A stretch of 64,000 bases of DNA from Arthrobacter sp. U41. GTDB lineage: Bacteria > Actinomycetota > Actinomycetes > Actinomycetales > Micrococcaceae. Under the pieces are notes generated by a model, which saw nothing but the letters and a program-made list of their open reading frames with translations, did no database searches and had not been told where the DNA came from. This document shows positions 36,482 to 41,059 of the stretch, in pieces. The position numbers were made by a program, and so were the translations under genes. The first letter of the stretch is position 1. Every line of letters starts with the position of its first letter. Location: contig NZ_VEGI01000001.1 in the NCBI RefSeq assembly GCF_007679325.1, positions 186,001-250,000 of the forward strand. The letters run 5' to 3'.

Positions 36482-36970
36482 CTACTCGAGGCCGGACCGG
36501 GTGGCGTCATCCAGCGGCGTCCACCAGGTCAGCGGGGGGACCACCTTGAAGCGGCGGCCGGTAAGAGTGTCCGGCGTGATCCTGACGAAGTGTTCCTTCT
36601 TGCCAGCCTGCCACGGAAACAGCAACAAGCCCACGGTGTCGAGGACCTCCTGCTGGTTCTTCACCGGCGCGGCCTGTCCCTTGATCACCACACTCCAGGC
36701 GATGCCGGTGTCAGCGTCAATGCCGTCGGCCTCCAGTGCCACCGGAGTGTCTGCCGTGGCTGCCTGCAGTTTGGTGCCGTCCGCCGTGCGGAACACCAGG
36801 GTGCCGTGGTCCACCTTGTAGTTGATTGGGAAGATATCGGGATGGTCATCCACCCACACCGCCAGCCGGCCCACGCTGACGCCGCGTAACAGACGCCAGC
36901 ATTCGTGGTTGTCAAGATTCTCAACTTCGTGTGCCTGCTGGTTTTTGCCCGGGTTGGGATCAGTACTCAT
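36482..36970 (-). CDS. Pyridoxamine 5'-phosphate oxidase (PPOX)-fold family protein 1
   Basis: 162-residue FMN- or F420-binding split-barrel protein. Recognised from CWRLLRGVSVGRLAVWVDDHPDIFPINYKVDHGTLVFRTADGTKL and IAWSVVIKGQAAPV. Its closest relative here is the 40538-41008 product. The mycobacterial DosR regulon also contains PPOX-fold proteins (Rv3129, Rv0080). ATG 36970; the long frame to 37021 is not conserved. First gene of an operon with the paralogue-B gene and divergent from the DevS-like kinase. Cofactor and substrate unknown. Confidence 0.88.
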   Translation of the reverse strand: MSTDPNPGKNQQAHEVENLDNHECWRLLRGVSVGRLAVWVDDHPDIFPINYKVDHGTLVFRTADGTKLQAATADTPVALEADGIDADTGIAWSVVIKGQAAPVKNQQEVLDTVGLLLFPWQAGKKEHFVRITPDTLTGRRFKVVPPLTWWTPLDDATRSGLE

Positions 36971-37027
36971 GGCGCCGAGCCTACGCCAGCCCGGCCGGAG
37001 CGGGGTAGGGGAAAAGGTCACAATCCC

Positions 37028-37062
37028 GGGCTGATCGTCCGACTACTCGGGTCTTTGCACCT
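37028..37062. promoter_or_regulatory. Degenerate DosR-like dyads between PPOX-1 and devS genes
   Basis: GGGCT-GATC-GTCCG (37028-37041) and GGGTC-TTTG-CACCT (37049-37062) start 21 bp apart in the divergent promoter region. Both deviate from GGGNC-N4-GNCCC, so they could be weak sites or chance. Confidence 0.3.
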
Positions 37063-37134
37063 GCCACGGGGTATTCTGGCTTCACAATCGTCAGCGTTGA
37101 CGAGCGTCGCGTTCGTTTTTATTGAATTGGGGCC

Positions 37135-38841
37135 ATGAGCATGCATTCAATGGGGGACCGCCAGGACCAGACCGCCACGGAGCCGCAACCCATGGTTGAC
37201 GGTGTCCTCCGGGGGTTCGTCTCCCGGGCCGAGGAGCTCCTCCAGTCCCAGGAACGGATGGCCGGACTGCTGGAAGCAGTGGTCGCCGTTGCCGAGGACC
37301 TCAGCCTGGATGCCGTGCTGGAGCGCGTGGTGGAGTCCGCCTGCCGGCTTCTTCATGCCCGCTATGGCGCCTTGGGCGTCATCGGCGATGACCGCGCGCT
37401 GAGCCACTTCATCACGGTAGGCATTGACGAGGAACTCGCCCACCGGATCGGGCCGCTGCCTACCGGCCACGGAGTCCTGGGGCTGTTGATTTCCGACCCA
37501 CGGCCCCTCCGGCTCCACGACCTGCGCCAGCATCCGGAATCCTACGGTTTCCCGGCGAACCATCCCCCCATGAAGTCTTTCCTCGGCGTTCCTGTGCGTG
37601 TCAGGGATGTGGTCTTCGGCAACCTCTACCTGACGGAAAAGGAGGACGGCAGCGACTTCACGGCCGAGGACGAGGGCCTCGCCGTGGCGTTGGCCGCCGC
37701 CGCGGGCGTGGCCATTGAGAACGCCCGTCTTTATGACGACTCCCGGCGCCGGGCCCGCTGGCTGGAAGCCTGTATGGACGTTTCCGGGCTTATGCTCAGC
37801 AGCGACCGTGATTACACCTCCGGGGGACTGGATCCCATCGCCAGCCGGGCATTGCAGGAATCCGGCTCGCAACTGGCGCTGCTGGTGGCGGCCGCCGGGG
37901 ACGCCTCGGGCCATATCGTCGCCGGCGTCGCCGGAAAGCGCGGTTCACAGTTCTCGGGCCGGTCGCTGCGACTGGATTCACCGTTGCTGGAAAGTGTCCT
38001 CGAAGGCGGGGAACCTGTTGTTCTGGACGACGCCTCCGCGCTCTTCGGAGAGATCGACGGCGGGATCACCGGGCCGCTGCTGGCGGTGGCGCTGAGCACG
38101 CAGGGAGCGCATCACGGGCTCCTGGTGCTGGTCCGGGACCCGGACGCACTCCACTTCGCCCGCACGGACATCGAGATGGGTGCCGTCTTCGGTTCCCATG
38201 TGGCCCTCGCCCTTGAGCTTGCCCGTGTCCACCGGCTCCGCGAGGAACTGCTGGTGTTCACCGACCGGGACCGAATAGCCCGCGACCTCCATGACCTTGT
38301 GATCCAGCGTCTGTTCGCGGCGGGGCTCAGTGTCCAGAGCCTGACCCGCTTCACCAAGGACGAGCTCGCCACGGAGCGGATCCGCACCATCACCGGAGAG
38401 CTTGACGAGGCGATCCGGAGCCTGAGGGACACCATCTACTCGCTCAAGAGCAGCAGCGGGGAAACGGAGCTGCTCAGCGGCCGGATCCGGCGGGTGACCC
38501 GCAGCTCGGCGAAGTCCATGCCGTTCACCCCGCGGCTGACCCTGACGGGCCCGGTGGACGCCGTCACACCGGATAAGGCCGACAACGTTGTGGCCGTGGT
38601 CTCGGAGGGCCTCAGCAATGCCATCAGGCATTCCGGGGCGGACGCCATCTCTGTGTCGGTAGGCGTCGTCAAGGGCCGGGTCACGGTTGTCATCACGGAC
38701 AACGGCGCAGGCTTCGCGGAACCGGAAAAGCGCAGGGGACTCGCCAACCTGGAAGACCGCGCCAAGATGCTGGACGGCGAATGCACGATCGTCAGCGCTC
38801 CGGATGCCGGCACGAGCCTTGAGTGGTCAGTGCCGCTGTAG
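37135..38841 (+). CDS. devS: DevS/DosT-like sensor histidine kinase with two GAF domains
   Basis: 568-residue soluble kinase. Domain order: GAF-1 (~50-200), GAF-2 (~210-365), HisKA_3 with phosphoacceptor H386 in [16 protein letters not shown], and a HATPase domain ([31 protein letters not shown]). The GAF-1 stretch [16 protein letters not shown] (H143) closely resembles mycobacterial DevS/DosT, whose GAF-A binds heme and senses O2, NO or CO; heme binding here is inferred. No membrane helix. Partner regulator is encoded convergently at 38934-39665. Starts at ATG 37135, with ATGs at 37141 and 37150 as alternatives. Confidence 0.9.
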
Positions 38842-38933
38842 CATCGCTTCCTGAGCCGCCGTACCCTCGCGCGTCCTGAGCGGGCGCCCTCAGGTACCGC
38901 CGCGAGCGGCGGCTGCCGGCCATCAGCTGCCGG

Positions 38934-39944: not shown

Positions 39945-40012
39945 TAGCCGTCGTCGCGGCTGGTCCGCCATTGTAGGCTGGACGCGTCAACCGCACGACG
40001 AAAGGACCAGCA

Positions 40013-40474
40013 ATGACCGAAGCCAGGGACATCCGGACCATCGTGGTGGGGGTTGACGGTTCCGATGCCTCGGTGGAGGCGCTGCGCCAGGCACAAAGCC
40101 TCGCCGGACCTCTCTCGGCCACGCTGGTCGCCGTGGCCAGTTGGGATGTTCCTCCCGTGTACGACGGTTACGTCGCGATGGGGATCGACGACTTCGACGT
40201 CAGGGCCGGCGAAATCCTGCAGGAGACAGTGGACAAGGCGTTCGGGGCGGAGAGGCCTGTCAACGTCGAAACGCGGCTGGTGCAGGGTCACCCGCGGTAC
40301 ACCCTGATCGAGGCAAGCCGGGACGCCGACCTGGTGGTGGTGGGCCGCCGCGGGCACGGCGGGTTTGGCGGAATGCTGATCGGGTCCGTGAGTTCTGCAC
40401 TGGTGGCACACGCCCATTGCCCCGTCCTGGTGGTCCATTCACCGGAGTCGAAGGCGGCAAAGGCCGCCAAGTAG
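40013..40474 (+). CDS. Universal stress protein, UspA family
   Basis: 153-residue single USP domain. Starts with IVVGVDGSDASVEALRQA and ends with the ATP-binding signature VVGRRGHGGFGGMLIGSVSSALVAHAHCPVLVVH (G-x2-G-x9-G-S). It should bind ATP and be cytosolic. The mycobacterial DosR regulon includes several USPs, one next to devR (Rv3134c), as here. Three DosR-like dyads lie upstream, and a hairpin-poor gap separates it from the convergent PPOX gene. Confidence 0.93.
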   Translation: MTEARDIRTIVVGVDGSDASVEALRQAQSLAGPLSATLVAVASWDVPPVYDGYVAMGIDDFDVRAGEILQETVDKAFGAERPVNVETRLVQGHPRYTLIEASRDADLVVVGRRGHGGFGGMLIGSVSSALVAHAHCPVLVVHSPESKAAKAAK

Positions 40475-40537
40475 GCAGGGCCCGGCCCGCTGATTGAACC
40501 GGGCCTTCTTAGAACGGCGCCCTGTTCGAACGGCGCC

Positions 40538-41008
40538 TTATTCGAACGAGGCCCGTCGGGGATCGGAGAGCCGGGTGGTCCACAGGTCAGGCCGGTTGAC
40601 TTTGAACCGGCGCCCGGTCATGGCCTTGGGCGCAAGACGCACGTAGTAGTCCTTGTCGCCCGGCTGCCACGGCTCAAGCAGCTGTTCGTCCACGGCGTCC
40701 TTTTCCTTCTGGCTTTCGATCAACTGCGCCTCGCCGCGGGCCACAACGCTCCAGGCCTGCTGCTCGTGGGCGTCGTAGCCGTCAATCTCGAAAGCGACCG
40801 GCTTGGCCGTCATCGCTGCCCACAGTTTGGACCCGCCGGCGGTGCGGAACACAATGGAGCGGCGCTCCAGCGCGAAGTTCACGGGAAAGATCTCCGGATG
40901 GCCGTCCACGATCAGGGCGATCCGCCCCACCACTTCTGTTTCCAGCAGCGTCCAGCACTGGTCAAGGGACAGTCCGAAATCGGGCGCAGGCGTGGTCTCT
41001 GTGTTCAT
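40538..41008 (-). CDS. Pyridoxamine 5'-phosphate oxidase (PPOX)-fold family protein 2
   Basis: 156-residue split-barrel flavoprotein family member: CWTLLETEVVGRIALIVDGHPEIFPVNFALERRSIVFRTAGGSKLW and QQAWSVVARGEAQLI. Its end (YYVRLAPKAMTGRRFKV) matches the PPOX-1 protein at 36482-36970 (HFVRITPDTLTGRRFKV), so they are paralogues. ATG 41008; the frame is open to 41080 but that stretch lies over the box at 41046-41059. A perfect DosR-like dyad lies 37 bp upstream. Cofactor unknown. Confidence 0.88.
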   Translation of the reverse strand: MNTETTPAPDFGLSLDQCWTLLETEVVGRIALIVDGHPEIFPVNFALERRSIVFRTAGGSKLWAAMTAKPVAFEIDGYDAHEQQAWSVVARGEAQLIESQKEKDAVDEQLLEPWQPGDKDYYVRLAPKAMTGRRFKVNRPDLWTTRLSDPRRASFE

Positions 41009-41045
41009 GTGGACCCACGTTACGTTCTGCCCCGGCACCCCATTA

Positions 41046-41059
41046 GGGCCATAAGGCCC
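41046..41059. promoter_or_regulatory. DosR/DevR-like box upstream of PPOX-2
   Basis: GGGCC-ATAA-GGCCC, a perfect 5-4-5 dyad 37 bp before the PPOX-2 ATG on the minus strand, similar in position to the hsp20 box. Confidence 0.55.

Follow-up and report, generated by a model that had tools for sequence, protein, structure and literature searches.

A DevRS-type two-component system and its candidate hypoxia and nitric oxide regulon in Arthrobacter sp. U41

A 64,000-nucleotide stretch of the Arthrobacter sp. U41 genome (hereafter the window; contig C11, positions 186001-250000, of a 3.89 Mb draft in 31 contigs) carries an island of five genes that includes a sensor kinase and a response regulator. 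We consider it likely that this locus is a DevS/DosT-DevR two-component system (DosRS/OsdKR-type) of Arthrobacter-like Micrococcaceae that drives a hypoxia and nitric oxide (NO) programme. The switch probably runs the response of the organism to oxygen loss, because likely operator sites precede stress, fermentation and NO-detoxifying genes. Homology, key residues, operators, operator conservation and gene co-occurrence were all established by calculation. The island spans 36482-41008 in the order PPOX1(-), kinase(+), regulator(-), universal stress protein (USP)(+) and PPOX2(-), and its genes are listed below by window position.

36482-36970, minus strand: PPOX1, Pyridox_ox_2 protein, divergent from devS (Pfam PF12900, E 9.8e-31 on a longer frame)
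37135-38841, plus strand: devS/dosT-like sensor histidine kinase with GAF-A (H143, Y165, G81), GAF-B, HisKA_3 (H386) and HATPase_c (Pfam, PDB, residues)
38934-39665, minus strand: devR/dosR/osdR-type NarL response regulator with Response_reg and GerE/LuxR helix-turn-helix (frame opens at 39695; Pfam, PDB, tree)
40013-40474, plus strand: single-domain USP, divergent from devR (Pfam Usp, E 2.4e-29)
40538-41008, minus strand: PPOX2, Pyridox_ox_2 protein (Pfam, E 2.6e-34 on a longer frame)

The devS and devR genes are convergent and hence form no operon in this genome. An earlier note on this DNA had given these five genes at the same positions, and Pfam agreed with every class named there, including the USP adjoining the regulator gene and the two PPOX proteins, which matched Usp and Pyridox_ox_2. 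The end coordinate of that note, 41059, coincides with the last position of a palindrome upstream of PPOX2, a box that went unmentioned there.

The kinase is supported as a DevS/DosT/OsdK-type predicted heme sensor. Its best PDB matches were DosT 2vzw (kinase residues 58-204, E 2e-54) and DevS 2w3d (residues 54-203, E 7.5e-49), its ATPase domain matched DevS 3zxo and DosT 3zxq, and Pfam detected two GAF stretches, HisKA_3 and HATPase_c. Ungapped identity of GAF-A was 61% to M. tuberculosis DosT (147 residues) and 57% to DosS. A contig scan for kinase relatives kept 79 loci, comprising 51 from Arthrobacter sensu lato (L019-L069) and 28 from other actinobacteria. The DevS-like kinase with two GAF domains and H386 that had been proposed was recovered, with the motif DRIARDLHD present and its histidine found in 79/79 related kinases. 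GAF-A retains the proximal heme histidine H143, the distal tyrosine Y165 and the DosT-type glycine G81, and equivalents of all three occur in 50 of the 51 Arthrobacter sensu lato loci (the remaining row is a gap) and in 28/28 of the others. PMC4082495 describes His149/147 as the proximal ligand of DosS/DosT, Tyr171/169 as the distal ligand-discriminating residue and Glu87/Gly85 as a disputed difference between the two kinases. At other sites where DosS and DosT differ, G84 and N163 are DosT-like, H91 is DosS-like, and I83, A102 and H112 fit neither. The kinase is the sole full-length match in the genome, with one other weak match (29% over residues 358-501), and its nearest counterparts among the fetched loci belong to Arthrobacter sp. 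OVS8 (100%, best segment only), Arthrobacter sp. Leaf69 (98%) and Pseudarthrobacter oxydans (94%).

Assignment of the regulator to the DevR/DosR/OsdR type is likewise supported by sequence comparison. Its best PDB match was M. tuberculosis DevR 3c3w (E 3.8e-65), to which it is identical at 116/204 residues, followed by VraR (E 5.4e-32), which shares the receiver and the LuxR-type helix-turn-helix. A tree of 44 rows was built from the window, M. tuberculosis, 35 fetched loci, two VraR and five NarL-type proteins of the same genome. All 37 DevR-type rows formed one clade (99/100), and the VraR and NarL-type rows fell outside it, with long branches among them. Equivalents of Lys179, Lys182, Asn183 and Tyr184 are kept, as is phospho-Asp54, which is D70 when counted from the 39665 start. 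We take Lys179, Lys182 and Asn183 of DevR to be DNA contacts, and N183/Y184 set DevR apart from VraR 5hev and the five own NarL proteins, all of which lack Asn183. The earlier note had proposed a DevR-like regulator with a nearly mycobacterial DNA-binding domain, to be refuted if the regulator grouped with unrelated NarL proteins; the part of its test open to calculation did not refute it.

A DevR/OsdR-type operator, GGGNCNWWNGNCCC, was found in the devR-USP gap as well as upstream of PPOX2, and is conserved in relatives. Urem et al. 2016 (PMC5069765) derived the Streptomyces OsdR site AGGGCCGATCGGCCCT and reported OsdR binding, by electrophoretic mobility shift assay, to predicted sites and to M. 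tuberculosis DevR target promoters. Exact GGGNC-N4-GNCCC cores occur in the window at 39889 and 41046, and three boxes were mapped in the island:

39886-39905, no strand: DevR box 1 in the devR-USP gap, core 39889-39902 GGGTCCTAGGTCCC (exact core; 18.3 bits, second best in 64 kb; conserved footprint)
39928-39947, no strand: DevR box 2, AGGACATACGACCCTAG, closer to the USP gene (13.6 bits, third best in 64 kb; outside the matrix training)
41043-41062, no strand: PPOX2 box, core 41046-41059 GGGCCATAAGGCCC, 37 bp before the ATG at 41008 (19.6 bits, best in 64 kb)

The score matrix was built from 50 distinct sites, taken from exact cores at 9600-12100 of 45 loci and from 13 candidate-promoter sites; two of the 52 exact-core matches behind it fall inside called genes. 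The scores of the PPOX2 box and box 1 are partly circular, as orthologous sites were in the training. In a matrix scan of the 64 kb the island boxes were the top three, the promoter of a hemerythrin-like gene was fourth and all else scored 7.4 bits or less. Box 2 rests on conservation more than on score, because 200 mononucleotide shuffles of the devR-USP gap gave a best score as high as 13.8 bits (mean of best scores -1.0). Footprint alignments of 13 devR-USP regions (window and 12 loci) and 14 PPOX2 upstream regions (window and 13), chosen from the 51 loci, showed diverged DNA in which conservation was concentrated mainly in box 1, box 2 and the PPOX2 box, with invariant G.C.T..G.CCCTA columns in box 2 across its 13 sequences and mostly invariant columns in the PPOX2 box across its 14. 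Of the 49 loci with a devR gene, 33 carry an exact GGGNC-N4-GNCCC box no more than 228 bp upstream of it. The 20-mer TTSGGGACTWWAGTCSCSAA, which we take to be the mycobacterial 20-bp DosR consensus, was not matched in the window even with 3 mismatches allowed, and therefore the shorter OsdR-type core was used. A loose core, GGGNCNNNNGNCCC with one mismatch, was rejected at 94 occurrences in the window against 152 expected, and because this is below chance only exact or matrix-scored sites were used.

Genome-wide, 28 exact GGGNCNWWNGNCCC sites were counted. Depending on the rule applied, 18 or 19 of these are intergenic (window coding fraction 0.90), 10 lie between divergent genes and none between convergent genes, where gene starts and the intergenic label are approximate as the calls came from a simple codon model. 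The boxed neighbours are devR/USP, PPOX2, two tandem USPs, an MscS-like channel, an acylphosphatase, a cupin/hydrolase and a GyrI-like gene, and further an amidohydrolase, a flavodoxin, an M20 peptidase, CHAD/CYTH with a helicase, thioredoxin/ABC and others. One boxed tandem USP is followed by a Zn-alcohol dehydrogenase (TIGR02822, above cut-off), and a boxed SDR gene by an L-lactate dehydrogenase (LDH; TIGR01771, 331 bits, cut-off 304). A boxed flavohemoglobin has Globin, FAD and NAD domains, and its best NCBIfam model, NO-inducible flavohemoprotein, scored 337.7 bits, under the cut-off of 432.

Two genomes served for comparison, G031 (DevS 90% identical, 31 sites) and G012 (without DevS; 17 sites, one dropped as a duplicate 50-mer). 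Eight boxed promoters are common to this genome and G031, namely devR/USP, PPOX2, tandem USP, SDR-LDH, amidohydrolase, cupin, acylphosphatase and MscS (genes 71-94% identical, judged among boxed genes only and not by whole-genome reciprocal search). A ninth precedes the GyrI-like gene (71%), with the box ~35 bp upstream in both genomes. The pair L106/L234 (32%, ABC proteins judged to be paralogues) and the second gene of the MscS promoter (41%) were left out of this count. When the initial eight promoters were compared over nine genes, agreement was 72/72 at box positions, which is true by selection, and 55% in the flanks; G012 has no boxed promoter in common with this genome. The flavohemoglobin has an exact box in 9 of 22 orthologue loci, always at -86 to -89, including 7/7 orthologues of at least 88% identity (own included), and in 0/8 paralogue loci. 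The SDR-LDH box occurs in 9/30 loci, including 8/8 at 83% identity or more (own included). For MscS, 11 of 30 loci score at least 16 bits, at -90 to -146 and all in genomes with DevS, and the box sequences vary while their place is kept. The tandem USP (E <=1e-60) is present in 45/47 genomes with DevS vs 0/14 without (Fisher p 5e-12, ignoring phylogeny and linkage), and sites above 10 bits precede it in 14/17 loci at about 64% identity or more and in 2/13 at 50-54% (30 loci examined). Among the exact sites of the three genomes, none fell into the convergent class and one per genome, at a stretch edge, stayed unclassed; this count, together with the absence of a T run on either strand of the PPOX2 site, makes terminator hairpins an unlikely explanation of the palindromes.

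In 49 of the 51 Arthrobacter sensu lato loci devS is followed by convergent devR, and the remaining two end at a contig edge; the full order transglutaminase-PPOX1-devS-devR-USP-PPOX2-SDR-glgC-glgA is present in 21, and PPOX1 adjoins devS in most. Kinase relatives (E <=1e-40) were found in 47/61 same-genus genomes, own included, and, with five candidates scored per genome, in at least 94/245 genomes and at least 14/32 genera of the family. Islands are larger in other species: within the 8-kb flanks of 26 loci (L043-L068, three of them window-type), 17 contain a Zn-alcohol dehydrogenase, 11 a beta-CASP nuclease, 6 an acetate kinase, 5 a phosphotransacetylase and 3 a phosphoketolase.

These results are consistent with a mechanism in which heme binding, ligand logic, phosphotransfer, DNA binding and activation are carried over from studied relatives. 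GAF-A would hold a b-type heme on H143, and O2 bound there and hydrogen-bonded to Y165 would keep the kinase off. Loss of O2, or binding of NO or CO, would lead to autophosphorylation at H386, from which the phosphate would pass to D70 of DevR. Dimers of phosphorylated DevR would then bind AGGGNCNWWNGNCCCT-like boxes, including those of its own promoter region, and would activate the USPs and PPOX2 together with distant targets, which may comprise the tandem USP, the USP with Zn-alcohol dehydrogenase, the SDR with L-lactate dehydrogenase, the flavohemoglobin, the MscS-like channel, the acylphosphatase, the cupin and the GyrI-like gene. Stress proteins, fermentation and NO removal would together make up a hypoxia/NO programme. 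The earlier note had called the locus a DevR/DevS dormancy island. The DevRS part of that label stands on the GAF-A heme-contact residues, the regulator clade and the operator, and the dormancy part does not, since the targets resemble hypoxic and NO metabolism and give no sign of growth arrest. Dormancy was the least supported part of that reading, and the evidence does not earn the word.

Alternatively, the kinase may be a redox or quinone-pool sensor that contains heme, and the programme would then answer the respiratory state and not O2 itself, an explanation that we regard as unlikely but deserving of some weight. The same dispute concerns DosS, and PMC4082495 reports a quinone effect for M. 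smegmatis DosS; the DosS-like H91 and the three sites that fit neither kinase also point this way. G81, in contrast, is DosT-like and kept in 78/79 related kinases (1 gap), and E87 is the residue that the same source blames for DosS autooxidation, with the E87G and E87A forms reported to bind O2 stably. It is rather improbable that the system is a general stress regulator (oxidative, osmotic or stationary phase) which kept the DevR fold and lost the gas-sensing role. USPs, the MscS channel and acylphosphatase are no specific mark of hypoxia, and according to PMC5069765 Streptomyces OsdR affects broad stress and development genes. This account is opposed by the heme-pocket residues in all 79 kinases bar one gap, by LDH, Zn-alcohol dehydrogenase and flavohemoglobin behind boxes, and by phosphoketolase, acetate kinase and Zn-alcohol dehydrogenase in the larger islands of some relatives.

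A rather unlikely outcome is that the regulon is the local island only (devR, USP and PPOX2) and that most of the boxes further away arose as chance palindromes or serve another NarL regulator. Two counts and the weakness of one control speak for this outcome, and they weigh against our own interpretation too. The motif is rarer than its reversed control (28 vs 52 sites) and sites in G012, which lacks DevS, lean to intergenic DNA as well (7/16); because of both, sites outside the conserved set may be chance, and genome-wide enrichment was dropped as evidence. G012 is moreover a weak control, having no close match to at least four of the target genes (the tandem USP, MscS, flavohemoglobin and SDR genes). 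Further results tell against our own interpretation. Boxes are missing in 13/22 flavohemoglobin orthologue loci and in 21/30 SDR-LDH loci, the latter mostly distant homologues, 17/28 MscS loci in genomes with DevS score below 10 bits, as do 2/2 in genomes without it, and 11/13 tandem USP loci at 50-54% identity have no site at the 10-bit line. The tandem USP often sits inside the devRS island in other species, and its co-occurrence with DevS is for this reason partly linkage; shared descent explains part of the box conservation, because much of it tracks the DevS clade of the window itself. Phosphoketolase was rejected as a regulon member here, with no site above 7.5 bits in its 3.5-kb locus (~150 bp upstream of the called start included), and a non-exact 14.0-bit site between convergent genes (L003:1430) was taken as chance. 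Finally, the PPOX1-devS gap of the window has no box (best matrix score 1.8 bits), and relatives including L025, L026, L039, L041 and L066 have an exact box there. The convergent layout, with boxes before devR and none before devS, suggests that autoregulation in this strain may be limited to the regulator. Against a purely local regulon, orthologous promoters are boxed despite their diverged flanks, the MscS and flavohemoglobin boxes keep their place while their sequences change, and convergent sites are lacking among those classed in the three genomes.

Several side observations were made at and beyond the island. The fourth-best site in the window is a weak candidate, as this promoter is absent from those shared with G031; a hemerythrin gene behind a box is also on the Streptomyces OsdR list (PMC5069765, Table 1).

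55873-55892, no strand: candidate DevR box GGGCCGAAAGGCCC, ~76 bp upstream of the hemerythrin-like gene (12.1 bits, fourth best in 64 kb; outside training)
55965-56504, plus strand: hemerythrin-like protein, candidate regulon member (Pfam PF01814, E 1.1e-7)

Elsewhere in the genome, G000:C26:98800-104000 (L119) contains three exact boxes within ~5 kb (cupin/hydrolase, acylphosphatase/DUF1508 and MscS-like), common to G031, and may be a second regulon cluster away from devRS. The segment 34063-36470, between the transglutaminase gene and PPOX1, holds three genes (two without a Pfam match, one DUF1254/DUF1214) that have no match in the 79 related loci. It is probably a strain-specific insert, because in window-type islands of relatives, unlike here, the flanking genes sit close together. 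The devRS islands L043 and L044, which come from other Arthrobacter species, resemble a fermentation island over positions 1-7400. They contain genes for phosphoketolase, acetate kinase and Zn-alcohol dehydrogenase, and in L044 also for a P-type ATPase, accompanied by DevR-type boxes that are strong (up to 24.0 bits) and in some cases located where a phosphoketolase promoter is expected, unlike in this genome. Several Arthrobacter genomes (L060:16095; G001, G006, G040) have two or three DevS-like kinases, possibly an independent split like that of DosS and DosT, and in G031 a box-like site (L242:2242) lies ~76 bp upstream of the gene for Pup, a prokaryotic ubiquitin-like protein.

M. tuberculosis has a devR-devS operon and a second kinase, DosT. 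That layout was not found here, where the genes are convergent and the kinase is single, and the distant targets differ, leaning towards fermentation and NO removal. The two systems are alike in GAF-A heme-pocket residues, kinase architecture, DevR DNA-contact residues, operator type and the USP gene beside devR. The operator is also very similar to that of S. coelicolor OsdK-OsdR, where boxes listed in PMC5069765 (Table 1) precede the regulator, USPs, a USP and Zn-alcohol dehydrogenase operon, a PPOX gene and a hemerythrin operon, all with counterparts here, the hemerythrin one weak. In Streptomyces osdRK is an operon and the OsdR regulon has nitrate reductase and development genes, in contrast to L-LDH and flavohemoglobin here. 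DosRS-type systems outside mycobacteria are thus already known from Streptomyces OsdKR, and what is new is the mapped candidate regulon.

Arthrobacter, a common soil genus, is said in work attributed to Eschbach (2003) to be capable of anaerobic growth through nitrate ammonification and fermentation. PMC4861733 describes isolates of its own that showed no anaerobic growth. Judging by titles and abstract openings among the matches listed, no regulator appears to have been named in the literature on Arthrobacter anaerobic growth, and a DevRS-type system appears undescribed for the genus. Given a DosRS-type system, a candidate operator and some ten candidate targets, the question of this regulator becomes testable. 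Our tentative proposal, which we hold as a real possibility short of a probable one, is that DevRS is the regulator so far missing for the adaptation of Arthrobacter to anaerobic conditions. A single heme kinase together with DevR would couple O2 loss and NO directly to lactate and ethanol fermentation (and to phosphoketolase-acetate kinase fermentation where species have larger islands) and to flavohemoglobin-based NO removal, and the dormancy regulator of pathogens would work as the fermentation switch in a soil genus that is mostly aerobic. If true, this would be a third wiring of the switch, after mycobacterial dormancy and Streptomyces stress and sporulation, in an easily grown soil bacterium.

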